Assembly (NCBI GenBank): GCA_021780215.1
Contig: JAJXZD010000165.1
Location: 1-51,559, forward strand
Origin: Acidobacteriota bacterium
GTDB taxonomy: Bacteria; Acidobacteriota; Terriglobia; Acidiferrales; UBA7541
DNA: 51,559 nucleotides
Reading direction: 5' to 3'
Within the stretch, counting starts at the first letter, position 1. Each line of letters starts with the position of its first letter. A program made the translations under genes and the position numbers. This document shows positions 316 to 15,949 of this stretch, one piece after another. The notes under the pieces were generated by a model. That model saw only the letters and a list, made by a program, of their open reading frames with translations. It searched no databases and was not told the origin of the DNA.

Positions 316-1893
316 TCACCATTTCGGAATGCCGCAGGTGAAATTGGCGGCGTCGTACGGATCGCCGCCTTTGTAAATCGCAGCCTGGGGGTACGGGCAG
401 ACGGGATGCGTGCGGTCAACGACCCCTCCAACGCGGTGTGAAGCAATAATTTTGTCCGGAGGAACATTCGTCTCGCGCCACTTCTCGATCACATCCTGTG
501 CATTGAACGCGCCGGGGCCGCGCACATCAAACCCGGAGCACATCCCCTCTCCGGGCACCATAAACAAGCGGGCGAAATCTTGCGTCTTGCCCGGGCCGCC
601 CATCGCTGCCTGGACATGCTGGTAGTAATCCACGAGGCCGCCTGGAGGGATCGCCGCTTCCTGCCAGGATTGGTACATGAGCAATTTTCCCCCGTGCTCC
701 TTGAAGGGACGCAGATTCGGATCGGTCATGTTCACCATCACCCCGACCCTCTCATCCGCAAGGCGCGTGTCGCGCGACACATCGAACGTATGCCAATCCC
801 AGCCCGCATTTTGGAAGACGACGGTCGCAAAGAAATCCTTGTTAATCGCCATCGGCTCCGGACCGCCGAGCATCATCCCCCAATCCAATTCGCTGCCCGG
901 CTCGAGCCCCGGATAGATCTGGGTGCCGTCGTTGAATCTGGCCCCGGCGTAAACGAGTCGGGCTGTCTGCACCTGCGCCGGCGTGAGGCATGATGCATAG
1001 TCTTCCTTGGCGGGGCACTGGATGCTGGCCGGATCGAAATGGCAGAGCATCGGATTCTCGATGATGCCGTCGCGCACGCCGTCGAGACCGTCGCACGCGT
1101 CGAGCACCGCCCGGTTAATAGCAGGATACTTGCTCGGCGGAATATAGCCGGGCGCCTTCACCCCGTCTTTCAGCGATACCCAGGAGAGGTAGACCGAGAC
1201 TGCCTGAAGATGCGTGATGTCGTACGCGGGATCGCCGGCGGCGATTCCGTCATAGTCTGTCGGATACTTCTGCGCCTCGGTCAGCGCCTGATTGCCGCCC
1301 TCGTGGCAACTGCTCCAGAAAGACAACCTCGGGGCCTTGCCGTAATACGCGCGAATAATCTGCTTCGCGGCTACCGTCATCTCGTGAACCGCGCGGTAAC
1401 CCCAATCAGTCACTTTCTCCGGATGCCCGATGGCCCACGGCGGGAGCGCGCCCGTGGCCTCCGCATCGGCATGGCCGGTGTCGGTGGATGCCGTCGCGTA
1501 GCCGCGCGCGACTTCCCGCGACATCCCGCCATAGCTGATGGCTCCCACGAACCCGGGATTGCCGGCTCCAAAGTACTTGCCGTTCCAATGCGCGGTGGTG
1601 GGCAGCCAGACCTCAAACGAAATGTGCGAATCGCTCGTCGGCGCGGCAAATCCCGCCACGCGGCAAAACGGCACCGATACCTTCAGCCCCGCCGGCGTGC
1701 CGTACTTCCCGGGCAAGCTGGGAACCTCGAAATCCGGCGGCGGCGCGATGGATTTCGCCATCGTTATTGTGACACTTGGAATTTTGAGGGTCGCCAGGCT
1801 TTCACACGACTGTTGGGCAGCCGCCGGCATCGAAGCGAGCACGAAGCCCGCCAGGAAAATCAAAAGCAAATATCGATACGAATGACGCCTCAC
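316..1893 (-). CDS. Secreted tannase/feruloyl-esterase-family protein, catalytic residues replaced (copy 1)
   Basis: The protein has 525 residues, with an N-terminal signal peptide ending near AAA-Q (about residue 26). Family landmarks are present: the EAQKYPTDYDGI stretch, the Ca-binding-like CDGLDGVRDG, and the C-terminal RTHPVCPYP and DAANFTC. The family uses a CS-D-HC arrangement. Here the nucleophile elbow is SSCHEGG (194-200), with His197 where Ser belongs. The Asp site in SWQEAAI is Glu412, and the usual GHC is GMC (Met451-Cys452). Both disulfide cysteines remain. The start is GTG at 1893, because it aligns with the paralogue and follows GGGGAGGA; the open frame further upstream is not coding. 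An ordinary ester hydrolase is doubtful; the fold is secure. Confidence 0.88.
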   Translation of the reverse strand: MRRHSYRYLLLIFLAGFVLASMPAAAQQSCESLATLKIPSVTITMAKSIAPPPDFEVPSLPGKYGTPAGLKVSVPFCRVAGFAAPTSDSHISFEVWLPTTAHWNGKYFGAGNPGFVGAISYGGMSREVARGYATASTDTGHADAEATGALPPWAIGHPEKVTDWGYRAVHEMTVAAKQIIRAYYGKAPRLSFWSSCHEGGNQALTEAQKYPTDYDGIAAGDPAYDITHLQAVSVYLSWVSLKDGVKAPGYIPPSKYPAINRAVLDACDGLDGVRDGIIENPMLCHFDPASIQCPAKEDYASCLTPAQVQTARLVYAGARFNDGTQIYPGLEPGSELDWGMMLGGPEPMAINKDFFATVVFQNAGWDWHTFDVSRDTRLADERVGVMVNMTDPNLRPFKEHGGKLLMYQSWQEAAIPPGGLVDYYQHVQAAMGGPGKTQDFARLFMVPGEGMCSGFDVRGPGAFNAQDVIEKWRETNVPPDKIIASHRVGGVVDRTHPVCPYPQAAIYKGGDPYDAANFTCGIPKW

Positions 1894-2103
1894 GTGGGTC
1901 CTCCCCTTTTGCCGTCGTTGATCGCCGTGCTCGCCTGTAAATTCTCGACTCCTGGTTCGCGGCCATGCTCTATATACCGGAGAGCGGCCCCACTCTGCAC
2001 GTTCTCTTTGCATCCAGCCCGTTTCCGCCGAGCAAAGCCCCCAAGACATTGCCTCGTTTTCACCTAGGCTTCTGGAGCGTCGCACAGCTCTTAGGGCCTT
2101 GGC

Positions 2104-3687
2104 TCACCACTTCGGAATGCCGCAGGTGAAATTGGCGGCGTCATACGGGCTGCCGCTGCCGCTGTAAATAGCCACTTTCGGCCACGCACATGCCGGATGC
2201 GTGCGATCCACGACGCCATTCACCTTGTGCGCGTTCTCGATCCTGTCGGGCGCGACGCCGGTTTCTCGCCACTTCTCGATCACGTCCAGGGCATTAAACG
2301 TGCTGCCCGCTCCCATGCCGAATCCCGGACACATCCCCATGCCCGGAATCATGAACAGGCGCAAGAAACCGGTCGTTTCTTTTAAGCCGCCCATCTTTGT
2401 AACAACGCTGTTGTAGTAATCGAGCGCTCCTCGCGGCGGAATGATTGCTTCGTCCCATGATTCGTAGAGCAGCAGTTTTCCGCCGTGCCTCTTGAACGGA
2501 TCCAGATTCGGATCGGTCGAATCGACGTATTTGCCCACCCGCTCCTCGGCCAGTTTCGTATCCCGCGACACATCAAACGTTCGGAAATCCCAGCTTTCGT
2601 CGTTGAGGACCATGCTTTTGAAAAAACCCGTGCTGATGCTCAGAGGCTCGGGACCCGCAGCCATCAGACCCCATCCAAGTTCGCTTCCCGGGTCGAAGCC
2701 GGGATAAATCTGCTTCCCATCCGCGAACTTTGGACCCGCGTAGATCAGTTTTGCCGTGTGTACTTGCGCTGGAGTCAGGCAAGACGGCAAATCTTCCTTG
2801 GCGGGGCAGGCAATCGTCGCTGGGTCAAAGTGGCAGAGCATCGGATTCTCGATAAATCCATCGCGCACGCCATCGAGCGCATCGCATTTGTCCAGCGCTG
2901 CCCGATGAATCACCGCGTATTTGCTCGGCGGAATATAGCTGGCTGCTTTTACTCCGTCCTTCAAGGACAGCCACGTGATGTATTCGGAAACAGCCTGCAA
3001 ATGCGTTATGTAGTATGCGGGGTCGCCAGCGGCGATGGCATCGTAGTCCGCCGGGTATTTTTGCGCCTCGGTCAGCGCCTGGTTTCCGCCTTCGTGACAA
3101 CTGCTCCAGAACGAATATTTCTCCGGCCGGCCATAATATGCACGAATCAGCGCTTTGGCCGCCACGGCCGTTTCATGGACTGCGCGATAGCCCCAGTCCG
3201 CGACCTTTTCCGGATGCCCGATGGCCCAGGCCGAAGGCGCTTCGCTCGTCGCGCCGATGTCCGAGTGGCCCGTGTCCGTCGAAGCCGCAACGTCGCCCTT
3301 CTCCACCTGCCGGACCAAGCCTGCGTAGCTGATCTCGCCGATAAACCCGGGATTGCCAATGCCTACATATTTGCCCGACCAATTCGCCGCCACCGGCAGC
3401 CACACCTCAAATGAGATATGCGAATCGCTCGTCGGTGTCGCGTAACCCGCCACCCGGCAGAACGGCACGTGCACCAGCAGACCGTTCGGCGTCCCGAAGC
3501 GTCCGGGGGTGCTGGGCACCTCAAAAGCTGGCGGCGCCTGGATCGACCTTGCCAGTGTGATCGTTACGCCGGGAATCTTCAGGGTCGCCAAACTTTCACA
3601 CGACTGTTGGGCAGCCGCGGGCCTCGAAGCAAGCACAATGCCCGCCAGGAAAATCAAAAGCAAATAACGAAACGAATGATGCGTCAC
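2104..3687 (-). CDS. Secreted tannase/feruloyl-esterase-family protein, catalytic residues replaced (copy 2)
   Basis: The 527-residue paralogue of the neighbouring gene is highly similar over its full length, including the signal peptide (LLLIFLAGIVLAS...AAAQ). The same three substitutions occur: SSCHEGG with His198 at the nucleophile position, SWDEAII with Glu413 at the Asp position, and GMC (Met452-Cys453) in place of GHC. The linking cysteines, the Ca-site-like CDALDGVRDG and the C-terminal DAANFTCGIPKW are conserved. The start is GTG at 3687 with GGGGAGGAC just upstream. Because both copies keep intact frames and identical substitutions, the altered active site is unlikely to be random decay. 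The protein is probably periplasmic or extracellular, acting on phenolic esters or binding them. Confidence 0.88.
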   Translation of the reverse strand: MTHHSFRYLLLIFLAGIVLASRPAAAQQSCESLATLKIPGVTITLARSIQAPPAFEVPSTPGRFGTPNGLLVHVPFCRVAGYATPTSDSHISFEVWLPVAANWSGKYVGIGNPGFIGEISYAGLVRQVEKGDVAASTDTGHSDIGATSEAPSAWAIGHPEKVADWGYRAVHETAVAAKALIRAYYGRPEKYSFWSSCHEGGNQALTEAQKYPADYDAIAAGDPAYYITHLQAVSEYITWLSLKDGVKAASYIPPSKYAVIHRAALDKCDALDGVRDGFIENPMLCHFDPATIACPAKEDLPSCLTPAQVHTAKLIYAGPKFADGKQIYPGFDPGSELGWGLMAAGPEPLSISTGFFKSMVLNDESWDFRTFDVSRDTKLAEERVGKYVDSTDPNLDPFKRHGGKLLLYESWDEAIIPPRGALDYYNSVVTKMGGLKETTGFLRLFMIPGMGMCPGFGMGAGSTFNALDVIEKWRETGVAPDRIENAHKVNGVVDRTHPACAWPKVAIYSGSGSPYDAANFTCGIPKW

Positions 3688-3889
3688 GTGAGTCCTCCCC
3701 TTGCGCCGTCGTTGATCGCCGCGCCTGTCTGCAAATCCTTGCGCTCCGGTTCCCAGCCATGCTCTATATACCTGAGAGCGGCCCTACGTTACACGTTTTC
3801 TTGCCACCCGGCCCGTTTCTGCCGAGCAAGGGCCGTCGCCGGCAGCCTTGCGGGAGACCTATTCCCTCCAGTAGAGTTTCCACGAAGGC

Positions 3890-3974
3890 GCCCGGGTGGC
3901 GGAATGGCATACGCGGGGGACTTAAAATCCCCTGTCCCTCACGGGACGTGTGGGTTCGACCCCCACCCCGGGCA
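3890..3974 (+). tRNA. tRNA-Leu (anticodon UAA)
   Basis: The acceptor stem GCCCGGG (3890-3896) pairs with CCCGGGC (3967-3973) and is followed by discriminator A. The anticodon stem GGGGA/TCCCC encloses loop CTTAAAA with anticodon TAA at 3923-3925. A long variable arm (TGTCCCTCACGGGACG) and the T-arm GTGGGTTCGACCCCCAC fit a class II leucine tRNA. CCA is not encoded. Confidence 0.95.
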
Positions 3975-4042
3975 CTCTTGTCCATGTTCACGCTGAATAT
4001 TCGAGCCGTTGCGCGGCCCTGTCCTTGAGGTATCATCATCAC

Positions 4043-4693
4043 ATGGCGGAGAACGGCCGCAATAATCTAAGACGTCCCTTCACACACTGGATTGGCGAGG
4101 GAGGAAGCTGGCTGCTGCACCACGTGGTGAGCGGGCTGGCGGCGACCGGCATCACTCCCAACATGTTCACCTACCTGGGTCTGGTGGTGAATTCCGTGGC
4201 CGCGGCGTGTCTTGCCATGGGGCGATTCCATCAGGCGGCTGCCATTTTGTTTTTGGCCGGCTTTCTCGACATGGCGGACGGGCAGGTGGCCCGCCGCGTC
4301 GGCCGCGTCACAGCTTTTGGCGCGTTCCTCGATTCCACGCTCGATCGCTATTCCGATCTGGGCCTCTATATGGGGCTGGTGGTCTATTACACGATGATTG
4401 GGCGCCCGTTCTACATGGCGCTGGCGGCGGTGGCAATGGCCAGCTCGTTCATGGTCAGCTATTCGCGGGCGCGCGCGGAATCGCTGATTCCATCCTGCAA
4501 GGTGGGCTTCATGGAGAGGCCAGAACGGCTGGTGCTGTTGCTGATTGGCGGGACTTTTAACCGGATGGCACAGGTTCTCTGGGTGATTGCGACGCTCTCC
4601 ACGCTGACTGTGATTCACCGCGTAGTCTATACCTGGCAAGAACTTCGTGCCGGCCGTTCCCTGCCCCAGGCCGAGGCGATCCTGCCACGCTAG
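4043..4693 (+). CDS. CDP-alcohol phosphatidyltransferase
   Basis: This 216-residue integral membrane enzyme would transfer a phosphatidyl group from CDP-diacylglycerol to an alcohol acceptor such as glycerol-3-phosphate or an inositol phosphate. The complete family signature D-x2-DG-x2-AR-x8-G-x3-D-x3-D is visible at residues 76-101 (D76, D79, G80, A83, R84, G93, D97, D101). I chose the ATG at 4043; the frame stays open upstream into the tRNA, which is not credible coding. The gene converges on the lipid operon, and the two TAG stops overlap at 4690-4693. The acceptor alcohol cannot be read from the sequence. Confidence 0.85.
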   Translation: MAENGRNNLRRPFTHWIGEGGSWLLHHVVSGLAATGITPNMFTYLGLVVNSVAAACLAMGRFHQAAAILFLAGFLDMADGQVARRVGRVTAFGAFLDSTLDRYSDLGLYMGLVVYYTMIGRPFYMALAAVAMASSFMVSYSRARAESLIPSCKVGFMERPERLVLLLIGGTFNRMAQVLWVIATLSTLTVIHRVVYTWQELRAGRSLPQAEAILPR

Positions 4694-5433
4694 GCTTTTC
4701 GGCTCTTTTTCAGCGACTCTTCCACCGGCCCGGAAACAATTTCCTGCACGCGCTGCCGCAGCGCTTCCGCGCCGTCCCGGCCCGTCGGCGTCACGTCAAT
4801 CGGATCGTGCACAAAGACGATGATTTTGCCCGGATGGAGCATCCAGTGGCCGGTCCGGAAAAATTCAAACGAGCCCACCATGCTGACCGGAACGAGCGGC
4901 ACGCCCAGCCTTTGCGCGATACTGAAAATTCCCTTCTTGAACGGGCGCAGGTGGCCGTCGCGCGTGCGCGATCCTTCGGCAAAGGCTATCAGGCTGATGC
5001 CGGAATCAATCGCCGCCTTGGCCCGCTCGGCCATGATCCGCAGCCCCTCGCGATTGGGGCTATCCGGCACGGGAATGTTGCCGAACCGGCTCATAAGCCA
5101 GCCATAGATTGGAATCTTGAAATGCGATTCGAGTTCGAAGCCCCGGAGAAATTGCGGAATTGCCGCGTAGACCACGAACGGGTCGAAGATGTTCACATGA
5201 TTGCTGATGAAGAGGCAGGTTTGCGCAGGGTCGAACCGCGGAGAGCAGCGAACCTCCACGCGTGCGCCCGCCAGCCGCAGCACATTGCGGCAAAACAGGC
5301 GCTGCAGCCAGTCGTCCTTGCGCGGGTCCACGAATGTCCCCAGGACTATCAGGAACGTGCAGACCACGGCAAAATGCACTCCGCTGACAGCCCATAGCAC
5401 AAGCGAACGAATGGTCAGCCAAGCCCGCTTCAT
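4690..5433 (-). CDS. 1-acyl-sn-glycerol-3-phosphate acyltransferase-like (PlsC family)
   Basis: This 247-residue protein has an N-terminal hydrophobic helix (about 10-35). Acyltransferase motif I is NHVNIFD (H79, D84), the substrate-binding motif is EGSRTRDG (from E153), and VPVSMVG follows as motif IV. It probably acylates a lysophosphatidate-like acceptor at the inner membrane using acyl-CoA or acyl-ACP. The start ATG at 5433 overlaps the stop of the lipid kinase gene as ATGA, which implies translational coupling. It is the last gene of the leftward lipid operon. The long open frame upstream of this start is a shadow of the kinase gene. Confidence 0.88.
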   Translation of the reverse strand: MKRAWLTIRSLVLWAVSGVHFAVVCTFLIVLGTFVDPRKDDWLQRLFCRNVLRLAGARVEVRCSPRFDPAQTCLFISNHVNIFDPFVVYAAIPQFLRGFELESHFKIPIYGWLMSRFGNIPVPDSPNREGLRIMAERAKAAIDSGISLIAFAEGSRTRDGHLRPFKKGIFSIAQRLGVPLVPVSMVGSFEFFRTGHWMLHPGKIIVFVHDPIDVTPTGRDGAEALRQRVQEIVSGPVEESLKKSRKA

Positions 5434-6332
5434 ACGATGACGTCGAGCGCCCCCGGAACAATCTCCAGCGAGCGGATTTGCAGATGAAGAATCTCGCCAT
5501 CCACCAAGGCATTCACCGGCCCGGCGAGATCGAACTCCACGCGCTGTGAGGCCGCCCGCGAGGCGCGCGGATGCTTCTGATGCGTGCCCGTAAACAGCCG
5601 CGGAAACAGCCACAGCAGGCGAAGCCGCCCGACCGGGCCCCAGCGGACATATTCGATCTGCCCATCGGTAGGATCGGCTTCCGGCGCAATCATCATCTTC
5701 CCACCTGTGAATTTGCTGTTGCTGAAGGCGAGGAAAAGGCACGGCCGCCGGTCCCATGCAGAGGCCGCAGCCAAACGGTGCGGGAAGGCCTCCGGCCGCA
5801 GCCTCGCCAGGCGTCCGAGCACAGCCAGGACGTAGCCCATCTCTCCCCAGCGCTTGAAGCGCCGGTTCGCCAGCTCGCCGGCATCGGCCGGAAAACCCAG
5901 ACTGAGCAGATTCATATAATAGAGTTCGCCGCCGGCATGCCGCAGCCGTATCAGGTCGCAGGCACGGCGCCGGCCGCTCCGCAGCGCTTCGACCGCGTGG
6001 GCAGAACCCTCGGTGGTGAAATCGCGCAGGAACGAATTGCCGGTACCCAGAGGTAGAAAACCCAGCGCGGGCCGTTCCGCGCCGCACGCCGCGGGAAAAA
6101 GTCCGTTCACAATCTCAAAGGAGGTCCCGTCGCCGCCCACGGCAAGAAAATTGCGAAAACCGCGCGAGTAGGCATCTGCCGCGAGAGCTGAAGATTCGCC
6201 CGGGCGCATGGTTTGCGCGATCTCGATATCCAACGAGCCTTCCTGACGCAGGCGCGCCAGCGCGGCCGGGGCCAGCTGTCCACAACGGCCATTCCCCGCT
6301 GCGGGATTCAAGATGGCAAAGAAGCGCTGCAT
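5430..6332 (-). CDS. Diacylglycerol-kinase-family lipid kinase (YegS/DgkB-like)
   Basis: The product has 300 residues and opens with a nucleotide-binding strand and NPAAGNGR (9-16), followed by the catalytic-domain signature GGDGT (66-70). FLPLGTGNSFLRD follows as the second ATP/lipid-site motif. The family phosphorylates diacylglycerol, sphingoid or related lipid alcohols. Its stop overlaps the start of the PlsC-like gene and it lies 40 bp downstream of the AMP-ligase, so it shares their transcript. In this operon it could phosphorylate the glycerolipid or fatty-alcohol-containing intermediate made upstream; that is inference. No strong ribosome binding site precedes the ATG. Confidence 0.87.
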   Translation of the reverse strand: MQRFFAILNPAAGNGRCGQLAPAALARLRQEGSLDIEIAQTMRPGESSALAADAYSRGFRNFLAVGGDGTSFEIVNGLFPAACGAERPALGFLPLGTGNSFLRDFTTEGSAHAVEALRSGRRRACDLIRLRHAGGELYYMNLLSLGFPADAGELANRRFKRWGEMGYVLAVLGRLARLRPEAFPHRLAAASAWDRRPCLFLAFSNSKFTGGKMMIAPEADPTDGQIEYVRWGPVGRLRLLWLFPRLFTGTHQKHPRASRAASQRVEFDLAGPVNALVDGEILHLQIRSLEIVPGALDVIV

Positions 6333-6372
6333 TTCAAATGCCCCGTTCGGCTCGATGGTCGCTGCCGGAACG

Positions 6373-8082
6373 TCACAGCGTTACCATCTGATCCCGGCTC
6401 GCGGCTTGCCGGATCTGTTCCGCCAGCTCCATGCGCTTGATTTTCATGGAAGCGGTCCGTGGAAAATCGCGGTCCCAGACGAGATAGCCGCTAATCCTCT
6501 TGTAATTCAGCAAACGGCGATTGCGCTCCGCAATGTCGGCCGCCACTTCCTCGGAAAGCGCCCCGCCGCCTTCCGGATGCACAACGAGAACTAGTTGTTC
6601 ACCGATCATGGTGAGCGCCGGCCAAAGGTAGTTGGCCGCAAAGACGCAAAATTCTTTGGCCGCCAGCCCCTCGAACACCGCTTCGATGTCCTCGGGGTAG
6701 ATATTCTTCCCTTCCTCGGTGACGATCATGTTCTTCTTGCGGCCCAACAGCTGCAAATGGCCTTTCGCGTCCAAACGGCCCAGATCGCCGGTCATCAGCC
6801 AGCCGTCCACAATCGTCTCCGCGGTCATCTCCGGATCGTCGAGGTAATGCGACATCACTGTTTTGCCGCGGACAGCCACTTCCCCGACTCCCTCCGCGTC
6901 CGGATCGGCGATGCGGACTTCGACGCCCGGCAGGGGCCTGCCAACCGTGTCCGCGCGGAAGGGTTTGAAATCATTCAGCGTGATGACTGTGCCGGCCTCG
7001 GTGCAGCCGTAGCCGTTGCCGACGGGAATGCCGAGGTCGTAGAAGAATTGCAAGGTGGACGCCTCGGTGAACGCTCCGCCGACGAACAGCGCGCGAAGTT
7101 CGCCGCCAAATCCTTCATGGACCTGCCGCAGCAAGGCGCGGCTCATCTTGAGCCTCGGTCTTCTGCGCGTGACCAGGCGGTTCATGCTGATAAGCGCGCC
7201 CAACATCTGGCGGCGACCGCGAGGGAGTTCCGCAAAGCGCTCTCGCAGGCCGCGCTCCAGAATCTTGAGCAGCATCGGCACAACCGTCATGTAGCTGATC
7301 TTGTATTTGCGGAAGGCGTCGCGGATATATTCGGGGCGCAGCGTGCGCAAGTGCACCACTGTGGCACCACAAGTGAACGGCCCGATAAAGCCGACCATGA
7401 AATCAATCGCGTGGTTGGTAGGGAGGATGCTCAGGTAGCGCATCCCCGGCGCAAAGGGAAACAGCGCCGTAAGCGCCCGGCACTGCTCCAGATAGTTTTC
7501 GTGTGTCAGCACGCAGCCCTTCGGGCGGCCGCCGGTGCCTGACGAGTAGACGATACAGGCAGGATCTTCCCGCCGGCGCGGAACGAAGATCGGATGGCGG
7601 TTGCCGCGAAACTCCTCCCAGCGCCGCGCTCCCTCCAGCGCGGCTCCCACGGGCGCTTCGGTGACGAGCACCAGGCGCGGCTTGCGCTCCCCGAACCCCT
7701 CGCTTTGCGCGAGCGCCCTCCAAATATGGTATTCGACGATCAGCACCTCGGCCCGCGAGTGCGCCAGAAGCTGAAGCTGCTCCGCGAATGGCAGCTTGTA
7801 ATCGAGCGGCACCAGCACGCCACCGGAATAGAACACCGCGTAGGCCGAAATCAGCCATTTCGACTGATTCGTCATCAGAATCGCGGCCCGCGAGTCCTTT
7901 TGAAAGCCGGCTTCCTGCAGCGCGCGGGCGAGGGGCAGCGCGGCTTCCCGGAACTGGCGGTAGGTAAGGCGCGCCTTCTCGCGGTCCCGGTCCGACTCTA
8001 TGAGGCATGTCTCCCCGGGCCAGCGAGCCAGCCCGGCGCGCAGCGCTTCACCGAGGCAGTTGTACTGGCGGAGGTCCAGCAT
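6373..8082 (-). CDS. AMP-dependent acyl ligase (acyl-CoA/acyl-ACP synthetase)
   Basis: This 569-residue ANL-superfamily enzyme activates a carboxylate as acyl-AMP and transfers it to a thiol. The P-loop is [11 protein letters not shown] (179-189), with Gly where the second Thr is usual. [10 protein letters not shown] (A5), TGDLG (A7) and the C-terminal [10 protein letters not shown] (catalytic Lys, A10) are all present. The ATG overlaps the stop of the acyl-carrier-protein gene (TGATG), suggesting that the carrier protein is its partner. The substrate is probably a fatty acid, given the neighbours; an aryl acid is not excluded. Confidence 0.87.
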
Positions 8083-8324
8083 CAGAGGCGCGATTGGATG
8101 CGTTCGGCGAGCGTGCGGAAATCGCTCACGCCCTGCAATTCGTAGTCCGGCAACTCGATGCCAAAATGCTGCTCGAGGCGCGTGAGCAGGCCGAGGGCCT
8201 GCAGACTGTTGATGCCGAGCTTCTGGAAAAAGTCGTCGCCCGGCTGGAGACTTTCCCGCGGCACGTGAAAATGCTCCGCCGCGAGATTCAGTATTTCTTC
8301 GATGGTGGCGTCGAGTGTGGGCAT
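8082..8324 (-). CDS. Acyl carrier protein
   Basis: This small acidic protein has 80 residues and the four-helix ACP pattern. The phosphopantetheine attachment site is LGINSLQAL, with Ser40 in an NSL variant of the usual DSL. The ATG at 8324 gives normal ACP length; the frame runs open to 8564 but the added sequence is Arg/Cys-rich and implausible. It sits between the crotonase and AMP-ligase genes, so it probably carries the operon's acyl intermediate rather than serving general fatty acid synthesis, where acpP normally neighbours fabD, fabF or fabG. Confidence 0.9.
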
Positions 8325-8397
8325 CTTTTTCAGTGTAACCGACTTCCCCGCCTCCTTACAGCAGCCAACTGCGCGCCGCCGCGGGCCTCGCCTGCCG

Positions 8398-9201
8398 TTA
8401 GGGGAGGTAGGGCAGCGGGTCCTTCGATTCGGCGAACTTTTGCAGACCCTCCTGGACCGCCGGGCGCATGAGCAGGCTGCAGAAGATTTCGATCTCCCGG
8501 CGCAGATCCTCCTGCGGAACCGGCTTGATGAACTTCTTTGCGGCAATGGCGGTCTCGCGGTCAAATTTCTTCAATTGCGCCGCCGTTATCCTGGCCACGC
8601 GGAGCGCATCCCCTTCGGCAACCACCTGGCTGACCAGCCCCGCAGCGTGCGCGCGCGCAGCACCAATGCTCCGCCCGGTCAGCAGCAGGTCCCGCACCAT
8701 GGCGTTGCCGAGATCGCGCTTGAGCCGTGGAATGCCGCCGAATCCCGGAATCAATCCCAGCCGCAGCTCGGGAAAGCAGAAACGCGCCATCTTCCCGGCA
8801 ATAATCAGGTCGCAAGCCAGGGCCAGCTCGAATCCTCCGCCGAAAACGACTCCTTCAACAGCCGCCATAGTGGTGAACGGCGCGGCATCCAGCGCGTTCA
8901 GCACACGGTGAATCCGCTCGAGAAAATCCCGAACACCGGCAACGCGCTCCTCGAGCGAAAGGCCGTGCGAACGGCTGTACAGTTCGCGCAAATCCGCTCC
9001 CGCGCAAAAGCCCTCGCGGCGGGCGCTCGAAATGATGACGGCGTGCGCTTCCACCCGGAGCGCACCGAGCGCATCGGCAAACTTTTCGAGTTCCGGCAGC
9101 GTCTCCGAGCCGATTTCGTTGCATGGAGCACGGTCCAGCACCAGCTCAATCGCACCTCCCACCACGCTCCAGGAGAGCGTCTTCCCGCGGAAACTGTTCA
9201 T
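8398..9201 (-). CDS. Enoyl-CoA hydratase/isomerase family protein
   Basis: This 267-residue crotonase-fold protein has the oxyanion-hole segment FCAGADLREL (65-74) and the second segment GGGFELALACD. Both hydratase glutamates are present, Glu125 in GGGFEL and Glu145 in FPELRLGLIPG, so hydration or dehydration of an enoyl/3-hydroxyacyl thioester is plausible. The start overlaps the stop of the second AMP-ligase as ATGA; the next gene, ACP, begins 73 bp further on. Within this operon it may introduce or remove a hydroxyl on a chain bound to CoA or ACP. Confidence 0.88.
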   Translation of the reverse strand: MNSFRGKTLSWSVVGGAIELVLDRAPCNEIGSETLPELEKFADALGALRVEAHAVIISSARREGFCAGADLRELYSRSHGLSLEERVAGVRDFLERIHRVLNALDAAPFTTMAAVEGVVFGGGFELALACDLIIAGKMARFCFPELRLGLIPGFGGIPRLKRDLGNAMVRDLLLTGRSIGAARAHAAGLVSQVVAEGDALRVARITAAQLKKFDRETAIAAKKFIKPVPQEDLRREIEIFCSLLMRPAVQEGLQKFAESKDPLPYLP

Positions 9202-10880
9202 GCGGGCCTCTTGTGATACATCGCGTCAATTTCCGCGGCATAGCGCGCGGCGATGGCTTCGCGTTTCATCTTTCCCAGAGTGGTGAGCAGGCCGTTTTCC
9301 GGCGTGAACAGTTCGTGCAGCACATGAAACGCGCGAATCTGCTTGTAATGCGGGGCCGAGGCGTTGTGCGCATCAATGGCCGACTGGATGCGTGTGCGAG
9401 CCTCTTCCGGTCCGTTCCCGTTCGCGCCGGCAGCCACAACCAGAGCGGCAAGGTAGCTGCGCTGGTTGCCGAGCAGCACCACCTGCCGGACGTCCGGGAG
9501 GTCCGCAGCGAGTTCGTGCTCGATCGGCTCCGGCGCAACGTTGTGCCCGGAGTTCAATACAATCAGATTTTTCAGCCGCCCCGTAATCCGCCAGTTCCCT
9601 TCCGTGTCAGCTTCGCCCTGATCGCCCGTGTGGAACCATCCCCCCGCGAGCGCCTCTGCCGTGGCCGCGGGGCGCCGCCAGTAGCCGGGAAACACATTCG
9701 GGCCACGCACCAGGATTTCGCCATTCTCTGCCGTCCGCATCTCCACACCGGGAATGGCTGGACCCACGCGCCCGGGAACGGGACGGCGCGGATCATCCAT
9801 GGTGCAGATGGCTGTCGTTTCCGTCAGGCCATACACCTGCAGCACGCGGATGCCGAGCATGTCGTAAAACAGCTGCGTCTCCACCGCCAGCGGCGCCGAA
9901 CCGCAAATTAGCGCCTTCAGGTTCGGCCCGATGCTCCGCCGAATCGCCGGAAACAACACCCTCCCCGCAAGCCAGAGGCTGGCGGAGCCGGCCACGCTTC
10001 GGCCCCCTTGAAACCGGCGAAGGTGCTCCTGGCGGGCGCTCGCATAGAGCGATGCCACCAGCCCGCCGCGTCCTGCGAGCGACTCTTCCACGCGTCGCCG
10101 GACACGCTCGAGGAACATCGGGACGTTGACAAAGTAGTCCGGCTGCGCCAGCTTCAGCTCCTCGGCGATCTTGGTCAGATCCGTCGATAGCGTCAGCACG
10201 GCGCCGCGCGCGAGCGAGGTCCACAGGAGGATGCGTGCCGCCGCAAAGCAGAAGGGCGCATACTGAAATACCTGATCCGGCTCGCGCCGCCCACCCATCA
10301 GCAAGTCCAGCCGGGAGCTCGTACAGCCGAGCATGAAGGTGATGTTCCCGGCGTTCAGGACCACGCCCTTGGGTTCGCCCGAGGTTCCCGACGTGTAGAT
10401 GATGGTCGATGCATCGTGGTCCGCGTGGTGAAAGGGCTGGGCGGTGCCAGCCGGCGTGGGCGCTCGCTCTGCGTCTGTGAATACTTCGCTGAACAAAACG
10501 GTGCGTGCAGCGTTTTCCTCTCGGTCCGGGATATGGGTAGCCATATCCGCGTCCGCGCAGAAGACCAGCGATGGTTCCGAGTCAGCCAGCACGGCGGAGA
10601 TTTCCGCGGCCACCTGTCGCGGGTCCAGCGGGACGACGATCAGGCCCTCCGCCAGTATCGCCAAATCCATCGCCACCCAGCGGATGCTGTTCGGTCCATA
10701 GAGGACGCAGCGGCTGCCCTTCTCTAAGCCGCTTCTGGCGAGAAATTCCCTCGCTTGCTGCACCAACCCCAGCAGTCCTCCGCCGGTCGCAGCGGCAAAC
10801 ATCCCGTCGCGCACTTCGCGGACGACCGGCTCCGCGGCCGACTGGCTGAGGCGGTCGAAAATACGCTCGAGAAAGGTCAT
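9198..10880 (-). CDS. AMP-dependent fatty-acyl ligase, second copy
   Basis: The 560-residue ANL enzyme has YTSGTSGEPKG as P-loop, YGLTETTAI as A5, TGDQGEAD as A7, GRLKNLIVL as A8 and a C-terminal LGKMKR carrying the A10 lysine. It is not closely similar to the ligase at 6373, so the two probably differ in substrate or acceptor (CoA versus ACP). I chose ATG at 10880, which overlaps the upstream stop as ATGA; an open extension to 10919 lies inside the preceding gene. Long-chain acyl-CoA synthetases of the AMP-binding COG1022 type are the closest match I recognise. Confidence 0.86.
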   Translation of the reverse strand: MTFLERIFDRLSQSAAEPVVREVRDGMFAAATGGGLLGLVQQAREFLARSGLEKGSRCVLYGPNSIRWVAMDLAILAEGLIVVPLDPRQVAAEISAVLADSEPSLVFCADADMATHIPDREENAARTVLFSEVFTDAERAPTPAGTAQPFHHADHDASTIIYTSGTSGEPKGVVLNAGNITFMLGCTSSRLDLLMGGRREPDQVFQYAPFCFAAARILLWTSLARGAVLTLSTDLTKIAEELKLAQPDYFVNVPMFLERVRRRVEESLAGRGGLVASLYASARQEHLRRFQGGRSVAGSASLWLAGRVLFPAIRRSIGPNLKALICGSAPLAVETQLFYDMLGIRVLQVYGLTETTAICTMDDPRRPVPGRVGPAIPGVEMRTAENGEILVRGPNVFPGYWRRPAATAEALAGGWFHTGDQGEADTEGNWRITGRLKNLIVLNSGHNVAPEPIEHELAADLPDVRQVVLLGNQRSYLAALVVAAGANGNGPEEARTRIQSAIDAHNASAPHYKQIRAFHVLHELFTPENGLLTTLGKMKREAIAARYAAEIDAMYHKRPA

Positions 10881-12307
10881 CCGGCCACTACTCCGCTGTG
10901 CTGTTCGAGCAAACCGCACAGTAGCGGGCTGAGCTCGGGGAGATAATCCTCCCAGCCCAGCACGCCGGTGCGCACCGGAAATTCGGGATAGCGTCGGGCC
11001 ACATGCTCTTCAAAATAGACGCCCATGGCGGCCATCATTCGCAGATTAAAAGCCACCACGCTCCCCATGGCATGGCGGATTCCCTCCTCGTCGGCATCGA
11101 GCGCATGCAGTGCGGCGACGATCTTCTCGGCGAGGTCCGCATCCTCCACGCCCATCACCAAGTGGTCGTGGCCGCGCTGCCGCATCAGATTGCGGATGCG
11201 CTCGTCCATGGTGACGCCGGCAGAGGGTACGCCCGCCGGCATCGAGGTCACGATGGCATGAAAACGCGAGGAGAGAATCCGGTCGCAGGCACGCAGGATG
11301 CTCACCAACTCGTACATATTGAGCCGATCGGAGGAAAAGATGGGCGCGCCGCCGATTCGTTCTGCCACTCGTTCGCACGCGTCGCGGTCGAGCATCTCCA
11401 TGCCGATGATCACGGGAAACACCCGCCGCTCCTGGCGGTACTGCGCTACCCCCCCGGCCAATGCGGCAATGTACCTTTCGTAAGCCGAATCCACCGCGCG
11501 CCCGGACCGATGAAAATAGATCGTGCGGTAATGGCTCTTCCGGTAGGCCCCGGCAACGGCACGTGCCAACCATTTTCCGAGCGATGGCTTCACCGGCCAC
11601 CAGAATGGATTAATCGGACACACCGCCAGGATCGGCGTCCGGCCATCCCAGCCAGCCTCACGGAGTGCTCGTTGGGCATAATCCGGCCCCAGCGGCTCGA
11701 ACGTCCACGCCGTATCGGTGCCCAGTTCGGTGGCGATGCCCAGCTTGCCGAGAATCTCCTGCGACTCCGGGTTGCGCGTGATGACCAGCGAGCTCCGGCA
11801 GTAGCGGCGGCACATCTTTTGCAGCAGTGGATCCATGGCACCCGCCTCGCCGCCATAGGCTACGCTCAGCTTGTTCTGCGCGGAGGCGATGCCCAGCGCG
11901 CCAATCATCATAGCCGTCAAGGCGCTGGCGAACTTGCTCTTGAACATCGAGCCTTCGCAGGCTACCACGCCGTGATGCCTCCGCACTTCCGAGTGCAAAA
12001 AAGGCGGAAAGACGTCTGGCAGCCGCACCTGTTCCGCGTCGCCGAAATATCCTCGCGTCAGTGAAAAATCCTGCGACATCACGCTCAGCGCAACCCGCTC
12101 GGCCCCTAGAATGCGCCGCACCTGCCGCAGGATCTCCTCGACGCGAATGTCGGACCCGGTATTCCGCGCGCCGTTGTAGCCCGCGAGCAGCAGCCGCAGC
12201 TTTTGTCCGGGCGTCCAAGCCTCCCCCGCTCCGAGCATCCATTCCACCTTGTTCCATTCGATCAGGGCGCTGACCCACGCCTCGATCACGGCGTCCATAT
12301 CTATCAT
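10877..12307 (-). CDS. Polysaccharide pyruvyl transferase-family protein
   Basis: The 476-residue protein has [13 protein letters not shown] near residue 43, like the N-terminal G(Y)xGxxNxGD segment of the CsaB/WcaK pyruvyltransferase family, and SSRFHAIV, like the family's (S)xRLHxxI motif. The fold resembles GT-B glycosyltransferases, and members usually add ketal-pyruvate to cell-surface sugars from phosphoenolpyruvate. Its presence inside a lipid operon, with ATGA overlaps on both sides, suggests that a sugar or head group is also modified. No signal peptide is visible. The family assignment is good, but the chemistry in this operon is unknown. Confidence 0.72.
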
Positions 12308-13449
12308 CGGGACGGCTCCTGGGCCGCATTGGCGGCGGCCGCGGGCCAGCTGCGATAGGGATAGCTGAAATGATTCGCCCGGCTATACCGCAGCAGCTGA
12401 TAGCAGTAGGTCGAAAAGGGAGCGGGAGCCCGGCCCATTTCCCTGGCCACGCGCCGGTTGTCAAAGACCGTATCCCAGACAAGGTACGGCAAGAATACCT
12501 TCAGGAGCGTTGCAAAGCCGCCAATTTTCCCTGCGCCTCCCGCCAGCGCCTCGATCATTTTCGAGGTGACTTTTTCGAGCCGCGGTGCAAACACCGGACC
12601 GCGTTTGCCCTGCGCCTTTGCCAGCGCGTCCGTGATCTGCGCAAATGTCTCCGAGCCGGTCCCGGACGACAGGTGATAAATTTCATGCGCCGGCTGCACT
12701 TTCTGATGCAGGGCTGCGATGGCACCGGCCACGTAGTCCACCGGGACAATGTCAATGCGCGCCTCGGCCCGGAACGGAAGAGCGCGAAGCCCCGCAAGAA
12801 ACACGAAGGCGCGGACCATATCGAACTGGTTGGTTTCGGCCCGCCGGCTGTCGCCGAGCACGATGCTCGGGCGAAAGATGGTGCGCGGGACGTCCGGAAG
12901 AAGCTGGCGGACCATGTGCTCACAGAATTTCTTGGTCCGCGCGTAGGGATCGTAATCGGAACGATTCCAGTCAATGGCGGCGTCTTCCTCGACCACTTCG
13001 CCAAAGCGATGGCCTGCCACGGCCACGGTGCTCACATGGCTGAAGCGCCGCAGGCCATGCGCGTCCCGCGCGCGCTGGGCGAGTTGGATGACCTCCAGCG
13101 TTCCCCGCAAGTTCACGTTGAGGCAGCTCTTCTCCGACTTGCGATTGAGCGAAGCCGCGCAGTGAATCACCGAATCGGTGGAGTGCACCAGTGCGCGGTA
13201 TTCGTCTCCGGCGAGGCCGAGATATAAATCCGTGATATCTCCGCGAAAAATGCGGATGCGTGCCCGCAGACACCCTTCGAAGGCGGGAAAATCCATGTGC
13301 AGTTGGAGCGCGCGCCAGAGGCGCTCCTGCGCCTCAGGAATATCGCGCGCGCGCACCAGCAGGTTCAACGGCTCGGCAGAATCCGCGAGCAGGTTGGCCG
13401 CCACATGCGCGCCGATGTAGCCGGTGCACCCGGTCAGAAATATAGCCAC
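12304..13449 (-). CDS. Extended SDR / thioester-reductase-like NAD(P)-binding protein
   Basis: This 381-residue protein has the Rossmann motif GCTGYIG (7-13), a Ser at about 140 in HVST and the catalytic YARTK (Y169, K173). The overall layout matches the NAD_binding_4 (male-sterility/thioester reductase) branch of extended SDRs. Such enzymes reduce acyl thioesters or act on sugar nucleotides. The stop overlaps the pyruvyl-transferase-like gene as ATGA, and the start lies 12 bp after the acyl-reductase stop. Two reductases in sequence could take an acyl thioester to aldehyde and then alcohol, or this one may act on the sugar moiety. Confidence 0.82.
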
Positions 13450-13461
13450 GGTTTTTGCGTG

Positions 13462-15819
13462 TTAGGGCGCCGCTCCCAGCGATCCAGCAGCGCTCGCCCC
13501 GGCGCGCCTGTCCACCTCCGGACGGCGCCGCGGGCGAACCTCAAGCGGGCGACCCTCGATGAGAGGATAGCACCACTTTCGCAGCGCCGGAATGTGGACA
13601 TTGATCCAGTAGTCCCACCAATCGACCGACCGCGCGTCGTAGCCGAACCGGGCGCGCTCCTCGGGCACCAGCGCCGCGTTCAGGCGCTCGATATTGCCCG
13701 CGTCAAACACGTGGTCGTTGTAAAGGATGAATGGTTCAAACAGGGTAATCAACTTGATCACCTTCTCGAGTTCCCGCTCCTGCCGCGCCAGCGGCGGGCG
13801 CACAAACGGAATCGGCATCACGGACCGGTTGATGATCTGCACGATCATCTTCTGCGCCGGAGCCGAGAGTTTGTCATAGCGCCCTTTGGAAACCGGAATG
13901 GCGTCGAATTTCAGCCGCAGACGGTGCTGAAGCCCATTCTGCGCCCGGTAGAACTTTCGGTGGCCCAGACCGGTGAGTTCAATCGAACGCCGCATGTTGC
14001 ACGGGTTCACGGCCGAGGTGGCCAGGTGGTAGAGACGCTCGTGGCGGCGTTCGACGAGGGCCGCGGAGACCAGCGTCATACCCCGGGAGACCAGGTCCAC
14101 GGGAATCAGGTCCAGGCACTTGCTCGCGTTGGTCGGAAGCTGCCGGAAGAATGTCCCCAACAGATAGGAGAGCGATGCGGAGGTGTTGACCCCCTCGTTC
14201 CAGCCAAGAAACGGGTGCGCGACCGATGATTCGACGATGGATGGACGCACAACGGCAATCGCGGCGCCCGGCGTGGCGTCCAGATAATCGCGAATGAGCG
14301 ATTCGGACAGGCTTTTGGTGAACGTATAGGTGTTGGGCCAGCCGAGCTCATTGGCGCGGCGCCTGCCGCTATCGGTCAGCGTGCGGCGCAGCCAGCGGAC
14401 GCGGCTCTTGCGGATCTGATTCTCGAGTGCTGCTCCGTGTAAGTCCTTCGCGGCATGCTCTTTGCCGATGGCTTCCTGGCGTATCTCCTCGGCGACTTCC
14501 GCGGAGTCCGCGCGCGCCTCGGTCTCCCGGACCAGCGCCTCGAGCGATTGCCATTCTCTTGTCGCCACAAAATTCGGGCCTCCGCGGGGCGAATAATTCC
14601 GCGGTAGCTCCTCCAGAATGCGTCCGTCGCGCTGCCCGATGGCATAGCAGGTGGAAAGATGCAGCAGCGCGGCTCGCCGGCACCGGCCGAGAAAATCGAG
14701 CAGATACGCGGTCGAGCGCACGTTCATGGCCAGCGCGTCGCGAAGATCCGGGTTGAAGTCGGTCAACCCTCCGCTATTGACAACCAGATCCAGCGAACCC
14801 GCAATTCGCGAGGCCACCTCCTCGGGCAGTCCCAGGTTCGGCTGGCTCACGTCTCCGGAAAGGACTTCCACGCGGTCGCGCAGGAAATTGCCGAGCCCGT
14901 CTCCGTGCCGGGCCGCCAGCGCATCGAACACCGGCGATTCTTCGATCATCCGGTCGAAGCGCTCGCGGGCAGTTGCCGAGCGCCGTCCGCGAATCAGCAG
15001 ATAGAAGCGCCCAATCTCCGGCAGCTCGCTCAATAGCGAGGCCAGCCATACTTTGCCTATAAATCCGGTGCCTCCGATCAGCAATATCTGCTTTCCGCGC
15101 AGCGACTCCCGCACCGAAAGCGGTACTGGCTTTGCCGGACTGCCGGAAAACACAACGGGAACGGAGACCTTTGCCGCCGGCCGCTCCGCCGGGCGAATTG
15201 CACCGTCGAGGGTTTCCGGGCGCCCGGCGAAGCCAAGATCGCGGAGCAGTTGCTCTCGTGTCACCCTCCCGTCGGGACGGTTCCCACGGAGGCGGCCCAG
15301 CGGGCCGCGGGGACGAATTACGGGATCCAGCAATCGGCCGGTGGCAAGACCGTCGCGAAAGTCGAGCCGGTTGGAGACAATCCGGTGCGCGCCGAGGTAT
15401 TTCGCCAGGGGGCGCATGATGTGGTCGAGCCCCTGGCTGACCAGCACGATGTCCGCGCCAGCGGCCAGTGCCTCGCGGAGCTTTTCCACGCCGCGCGGCT
15501 TCAGGCGCCCCTTGAGATGATATTCAAAGAACTCCTCGCCCAGCAGGTCCAGGCGGTCCCGGCTCACCCCGCGCAGGACGGTGTGGAGCACGCGGGTGGC
15601 GGCCACGCGACCCACGATATAGAGCAGCGGGCGGGCCATTGCTAGCAGGCCCATGCCCCCGCGGCGCGTCCACCGCTCGAGAAAGCTCTGCGCATTCCAG
15701 GCGAAAAAACCCACCGGCCGCACTGCGGTCAGATTCAGCAGGCTGCCTTCCACGCGCCAGAAAACCGGCGCGCGCGAGTTATCGGGAGGATGCGGCACGT
15801 TGGAACCGGATGAGGACAT
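13462..15819 (-). CDS. Fatty-acyl reductase with N-terminal degenerate HAD domain
   Basis: The protein has 785 residues from ATG at 15819 (a TTG at 15834 is possible). The N-terminal 1-210 looks like a HAD-IB phosphatase: FWRVEGSLL (20-28) aligns with [19 protein letters not shown] with motif II, and RDGLATGRL is also typical. The nucleophile Asp is Arg22 and the general acid is Glu24, so catalysis by this domain is unlikely. The C-terminal part is a fatty-acyl-CoA reductase (FAR): GGTGFIG (249-255), YTFTK (Y498, K502), and a sterile-type C-terminal domain ending [16 protein letters not shown]. It would reduce acyl-CoA or acyl-ACP to fatty alcohol. It is the first gene of the operon. Confidence 0.85.
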
Positions 15820-15949
15820 AGCAGGATGATTCAACGCCGATCGCCGCGGACGTGGCCGAAGGTAGCACGCTTCCCCGGCTCGGGCAAGACCGTCGTCCCC
15901 TGTGCAGCGTGCGGCATGGCTCGCGAAATCCTCTGCAAGGCTTTTCCCA

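Follow-up and report, generated by a model that had tools for sequence, protein, structure and literature searches.

The described proteins closest to those considered here are feruloyl esterase B of Aspergillus oryzae (AoFaeB, 3wmt) and FoFaeC (6fat, 8bhh), together with MHETase of Ideonella sakaiensis, a member of the same family. AoFaeB carries the triad S203-H457-D417, and in MHETase the oxyanion hole is described as the backbone NH groups of G132 and E226 (PMC6461665); the MHETase triad, S225-H528-D492, is intact, and S131, at a position that is glycine in 91% of the family, is reported to tune substrate binding in this active esterase (PMC7568301). More generally, accounts of the alpha/beta-hydrolase superfamily locate the acid behind strand beta-7, or on beta-6 in many of its groups, and assign the histidine to the loop that follows beta-8 (PMC11878206; PMC7034887). 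Here we describe two adjoining genes, A and B, in a stretch of 51,559 nucleotides from an Acidobacteriota genome (contig JAJXZD010000165.1 of assembly GCA_021780215.1; the whole stretch is called the window below). They encode tannase-family proteins that resemble AoFaeB and FoFaeC in the entire fold, lid included (TM 0.90, Z 44), in the aspartates of a presumed calcium site and in the CS...HC cysteine pair. The triad, in contrast, has given way in A, B and the clade to which they belong to His, to Met or Gly, and to Glu or Ser, a glycine of the oxyanion loop has become proline, and an aspartate has been gained at the end of beta-6. These proteins represent a new active-site variant inside a known family, one that is real, conserved and selected. 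It is highly probable that the serine-esterase chemistry has gone and that the altered site is under selection.

A and B form a tandem pair on the minus strand, with B downstream of A across a gap of about 210 bases. Each matches Pfam Tannase (PF07519) along its full length, with E-values of 1.5e-96 and 4.7e-97 and scores of 324.7 and 326.3 bits, where the curated cut-off is 29.8. The start of B was set at 1893 by homology, the mechanical open frame extending upstream to 2085. The genes and the positions that matter are as follows.

2104-3687, minus strand: tannase-family protein A, 527 amino acids, with motifs CHEGG, SWDE and GMC
316-1893, minus strand: tannase-family protein B, 525 amino acids, with motifs CHEGG, SWQE and GMC
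3094-3096, minus strand: A His198, nucleophile-elbow position (Ser in esterases), placed by HMMER alignment and codon check
1303-1305, minus strand: B His197, equivalent of A His198
3022-3024, minus strand: A Asp222, end of strand beta-6
1231-1233, minus strand: B Asp221, equivalent of A Asp222
3349-3351, minus strand: A Pro113, oxyanion loop
1555-1557, minus strand: B Pro113, oxyanion loop
3259-3261, minus strand: A Asp143, loop after strand beta-4
1465-1467, minus strand: B Asp143, equivalent of A Asp143
2449-2451, minus strand: A Glu413, catalytic Asp position
658-660, minus strand: B Glu412, catalytic Asp position
2332-2334, minus strand: A Met452, catalytic His position
541-543, minus strand: B Met451, catalytic His position
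3097-3099, minus strand: A Cys197, presumed partner of Cys453 in the family's active-site disulfide (bond as in PMC6461665)
2329-2331, minus strand: A Cys453, presumed partner of Cys197
minus strand, by codon check: B Cys196 and Cys452, the retained flanking cysteines

In the HMMER alignment of A with AoFaeB (3wmt), the residues that line up with the Ser of GCSTGG, the Asp of HGMEDAI and the His of GMAHC are His198, Glu413 and Met452, respectively. A sequence-only reading of the window had claimed that in both copies the catalytic Ser, Asp and His are replaced by His, Glu and Met, while the cysteines stay, and the alignment and codon check bear this out; the residues that it cited (196-197, 412 and 451-452) are in the numbering of copy B, and we use that of A from here on. 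The N-terminus of A is a hydrophobic, signal-like segment ending in AAAQQ, and judging by eye from this stretch the window proteins are likely exported.

Did the two copies change independently, or did they inherit the change? In a maximum-likelihood tree of 76 rows (36 clade members and 40 others, with the window-genome copy L002 left out), all 36 proteins with Cys-His at the elbow form one clade with support of 100/100, which divides into CHEGG (100/99) and CHNGG (98/92) halves. Its sister, joined at 100/100, consists of ten intact tannases of the window's genus (L001, L091-L099), which are 45-60% identical to the clade but retain GCSTGG, GWxD and HC in 10/10 and have conserved gene neighbors of their own. 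A and B fall into separate CHEGG subclades, each with close relatives from other genomes, and are therefore old paralogues; the tree indicates that their changes descend from one Ser-to-His event and are not an independent repetition. The sequence-only reading had taken the identical changes in two paralogues as an argument for selection, an argument that lapses because the changes are shared by descent; selection itself is upheld on other grounds, namely the single origin, the 36 members, and a ratio of nonsynonymous to synonymous substitution rates (dN/dS) of 0.05-0.13 in ten clade pairs versus 0.10-0.25 in four intact pairs; several of the underlying dS values exceed 1 and are rough. By this measure the clade is under purifying selection. 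Decaying pseudogenes or an assembly artefact would be a further explanation. Although the assembly is a draft in 246 contigs, 18 CHEGG open reading frames (ORFs) occur in 12 genomes, the motif also appears in named records of metagenome-assembled genomes (MAGs), dN/dS is far below 1, and both window ORFs are open over their full length, so that this explanation is already contradicted and has a negligible probability.

At pairwise identities of 44-93%, the 36 clade proteins agree on a small set of residues. His198, Asp222 and Pro113 are present in all of them and Ser196 in 33, and residue 143 is Asp in 34, Glu in one and His in one. Cys197 and Cys453 are likewise invariant, and of the ten family cysteines eight are kept in 36/36 and the other two in 35/36. 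Asp269, Asp272 and Asp276, also invariant in the clade, are putative ligands of a structural calcium ion such as that of MHETase. Of the 40 other rows, 39 have Gly113, 38 have Ser198, 34 have Ala222 and all have both Asp413 and His452; none has Asp, Glu or His at 143. Ten of the 138 positions conserved in those 40 rows are lost in the clade, eight of them in the six catalytic loops, which hold 26 of the 138 (Fisher p 2e-5, a value that ignores kinship, for loops set from the strand ends of the model after the list of changed positions was known). At the respective triad positions, Ser, Asp or His is found in 0/36 clade rows. What stands there instead varies: residue 413 is Glu in 26, Ser in nine and Gly in one, residue 452 is Met in 25, Gly in ten and Ile in one, and the two covary, Glu going with Met or Ile, and Ser or Gly with Gly, the latter combination marking one derived subclade. 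The expectation of an identical replacement of all three residues, and of a clade carrying CHEGG plus GMC, holds in part. The replacements are the same in A and B and the clade exists, but a third CHEGG copy in the genome (L003) has Ile, half of the clade reads CHNGG, and Glu413 and Met452 are not fixed; His198, which had been singled out, is fixed, as are Asp222 and Pro113, which had not been named.

Judged from these residue patterns, a serine-esterase mechanism in the clade is very unlikely. It is conceivable that the proteins hydrolyze esters in another way, in which His198 would serve as nucleophile or base and Glu413 would supply the acid, as the retained oxyanion-loop residues and the 26 members with Glu at the acid position might suggest. 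The beta-8 loop, however, offers no base, the ten members with Ser or Gly at 413 have no acid there, and a histidine nucleophile is not among the active-site variants in section 2.7 of PMC11878206; we consider continued ester hydrolysis highly improbable.

A structural model built from 15 rows, five of them distant, reached a predicted local distance difference test score (pLDDT) of 85.3 and a predicted template-modeling score (pTM) of 0.87; an earlier one, built from 11 close rows, reached a pLDDT of only 45 and was set aside. The model has an alpha/beta-hydrolase core with a lid, and its best match is AoFaeB (Z 43.9, 483 residues aligned at 2.4 A), the top matches being AoFaeB, FoFaeC, MHETase and the A. 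niger tannase, with TM values from 0.90 down to 0.76. His198 directly follows strand beta-5 and precedes the next helix, which is the place of the nucleophile elbow, and Asp222 directly follows strand beta-6. In an alignment made by eye against the MHETase sequence, G132 and E226 would correspond to residues 114 and 199. If these provide the oxyanion NH groups, Pro113, the counterpart of MHETase residue 131, lies next to that site. MHETase resembles the clade in having Glu after the elbow residue, as in CHEGG, and a residue other than Gly at 131 (Ser); it differs in its intact triad.

Based on these analyses, we propose the following model for the origin of the clade. One event in an esterase ancestor would have founded a group of secreted tannase-fold proteins without Ser-His-Asp chemistry. 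Sequence and model show that the fold, the lid, the presumed calcium-site aspartates and the active-site cysteines have persisted through the change, that the elbow Ser has become His and the oxyanion-loop Gly Pro, and that one Asp has become fixed at the end of beta-6 and another after beta-4. His198 and Asp222 may then form a relocated pair that acts as general base, next to an oxyanion site retained in the backbone NH groups of residues 114 and 199. The product of the change would be a non-esterase enzyme whose reaction is that of a lyase, a decarboxylase or a cofactor-free oxygenase, with a phenolic substrate bound beneath the ancestral lid. As the superfamily acid can move to beta-6, Asp222 would occupy a known acid position. 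With the beta-8 His gone, the elbow occupied by a His and the beta-6 place by an acid, the relocated pair would be the simplest chemistry suggested by the fixed residues. Reuse of the fold in this manner has precedents: it includes non-hydrolytic members with altered triads, it serves non-hydrolytic base chemistry in the HOD and QDO dioxygenases and the methylketone synthase MKS1, and in some cofactor-free dioxygenases the elbow Ser is described as dispensable (PMC10548524). HOD itself uses the ordinary triad His-Asp, whereas the clade has lost that His (Met, Gly or Ile at the beta-8 loop in 36/36 rows) and has an elbow His.

How far does the evidence carry this model? The clade probably does a different job from the ancestral esterases. 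A repurposed secreted protein with a relocated His-Asp enzyme site is the reading that sequence and model lead us to prefer over a mere binder, if tentatively, and still more tentative is the fuller proposal of a new enzyme class, in which the catalytic His has shifted out of the beta-8 loop into the elbow and is paired with the beta-6 acid (or bound to a metal together with His141-x-Asp143) for non-hydrolytic reactions on plant phenolics. Several observations weigh against an enzyme of this kind. Asp222 also occurs in four of the 40 non-clade rows, including the intact-triad copies L006 and L007 of the window genome, and is therefore not a device of the clade only; one subclade dispenses with Glu413 and Met452, so that at most part of the site can be essential; and clustering of 407 neighbor ORFs yielded no conserved operon partner for the elbow-His genes. 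Loss of all three triad residues is also expected of a descendant that only binds.

Such a descendant would be a non-catalytic secreted binder or carrier, holding a phenolic or tannin-like ligand under the lid for scavenging, protection or delivery, with the former catalytic residues as ligand contacts. This is the main rival to the relocated enzyme site, and we give it a lower but substantial probability. All triad residues are lost in 36/36, while the fold, lid and cysteines are retained, and an intact sister esterase gene is present in 10/12 CHEGG genomes; inactive members of the superfamily reportedly serve as regulators, DPP10 being one. However, the strict His, Asp and Pro at the catalytic loops of proteins this divergent exceed the expected needs of a hydrophobic pocket, and in the second genus that carries the clade the search down to E 1e-165 recovered no intact counterpart of the sister. 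No genome of the window's genus has the sister without a CHEGG gene, a co-occurrence that may be explained by shared ancestry. On balance, we lean toward new chemistry.

Alternatively, His141-x-Asp143, His198 and Asp222, with Glu413 in most members, could make up a metal site and the protein a metal-dependent hydrolase or oxygenase. Residue 143 is a common metal ligand in every clade row and in none of the 40 others, and His141 is invariant in all 76. Yet ordinary esterases likewise keep His141 and Asp138 throughout, so that these two have another role; L002, which carries CSNGG, has Asp at 143 too, which cuts against the uniqueness of that residue; and position 143 is modeled with less certainty (pLDDT 70 for its block, below 50 for residues 146-148). 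We regard a metal site as unlikely.

The window genome contains seven tannase-type genes. CHEGG is found in A, B and L003, and the other four have Ser at the elbow, namely L001, L006 and L007, with the full CS-D-HC set, and L002, whose hidden Markov model (HMM) alignment is split and whose motif set aligned in part only. A contig scan with protein A returned ten relatives: eight CHEGG proteins, from MAGs of Acidobacteria, Terriglobia and Acidiferrales, and a pair of distant loci. For several of the named relatives the record titles point to soil or permafrost. Searching 95 genomes of the order with a CHEGG profile recovered the 18 CHEGG ORFs in 12 of the 20 genomes of the window's genus and no match near their score in the order's other genera. 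In a phylum sample of 396 genomes, with the three best candidates per genome scored, a second genus in another class of the phylum yielded 18 CHNGG ORFs in 9/10 genomes; among all 38 genomes listed for that class, no further genus matched at E 1e-165. The clade thus comprises 36 read ORFs in 21 genomes of two genera and one phylum, a restriction that holds for the sampled genomes and thresholds. Outside the phylum, 299 genomes from that of a Sphingomonadaceae genome were searched with the profile and contained no match at E 1e-140, in a search with no positive control, and no relative of the CHEGG profile was found in viral contigs. The CH[EN]GG pattern at the DNA level occurred in 3/398 genomes of the Sphingomonadaceae phylum, none a tannase on reading, and two further pattern matches in the window's own phylum (L137 and L139) are not tannases. 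Plasmid-borne relatives, taken as the best 10 of 163 records, are at most 39% identical, nine of the ten being annotated as tannase or feruloyl esterase. A literature search covering few subscription journals returned no recognizable account of elbow-His members of the tannase family.

A different kind of change at the elbow was seen in Marinimicrobia, in two of the 40 other rows, where Asp or Ala replaces Ser and Asp413 and His452 are kept. Both come from one locus (L019, 2816-7542), a tandem of three tannase-family genes with CDSGG, CATGG and CSTGG, in which the nucleophile is lost or changed in copies adjoining an intact one.

The surroundings of the elbow-His genes fix no function, and a promoter and terminator scan of 1800-4000 in the window gave nothing above shuffles. 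A cytochrome c and a pyrroloquinoline quinone (PQQ)-type dehydrogenase lie near 3/16 CHEGG loci (L079, 756-3193; L086, 4644-9804; L087, 1-4855), and at two of these loci they are duplicated. Another recurrent neighbor, roughly 300 amino acids long, secreted by its looks, labeled SnoaL-like by eye and with no Pfam match, accompanies tannases of both the intact and the changed kind, near 3/10 sister, 3/18 CHNGG and 1/16 CHEGG loci (L092, L093, L098, L110, L112, L114 and L074). Two CHNGG loci from different genomes (L110, 7178-9700; L112, 3246-5807) have an MFS (major facilitator superfamily) transporter and the SnoaL-like protein in common, possibly a small conserved cluster, and at L119 (8025-10118) a 697-amino-acid protein with three SnoaL_4 stretches adjoins the CHNGG gene. 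Among chosen neighbors that were scanned, some CHNGG loci adjoin genes for SDR (short-chain dehydrogenase/reductase), MFS, MoCo (molybdenum cofactor)-domain or hydroxyacyl-CoA dehydrogenase proteins. Elsewhere in the window, 3950-15834 holds a run of lipid genes encoding a CDP-alcohol phosphatidyltransferase, a PlsC-like acyltransferase (by reading), a diacylglycerol kinase, two AMP-binding enzymes, an enoyl-CoA hydratase, a polysaccharide pyruvyl transferase and two types of fatty acyl-CoA reductase, a run that may resemble ether-lipid (elb) clusters.

What is the relevance of a tannase fold with histidine at its elbow? The superfamily has been described with its histidine kept in one place (PMC11878206). 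A conserved elbow-His clade with an intact sister in the same genus offers a clean case of an esterase turning into something else, one open to experiment through mutation of a handful of identified residues. Annotation by family membership only would label these proteins tannases or feruloyl esterases, which is probably wrong. Several of the named relatives are, judging by record titles, from soil or permafrost, settings where phenolic turnover matters.

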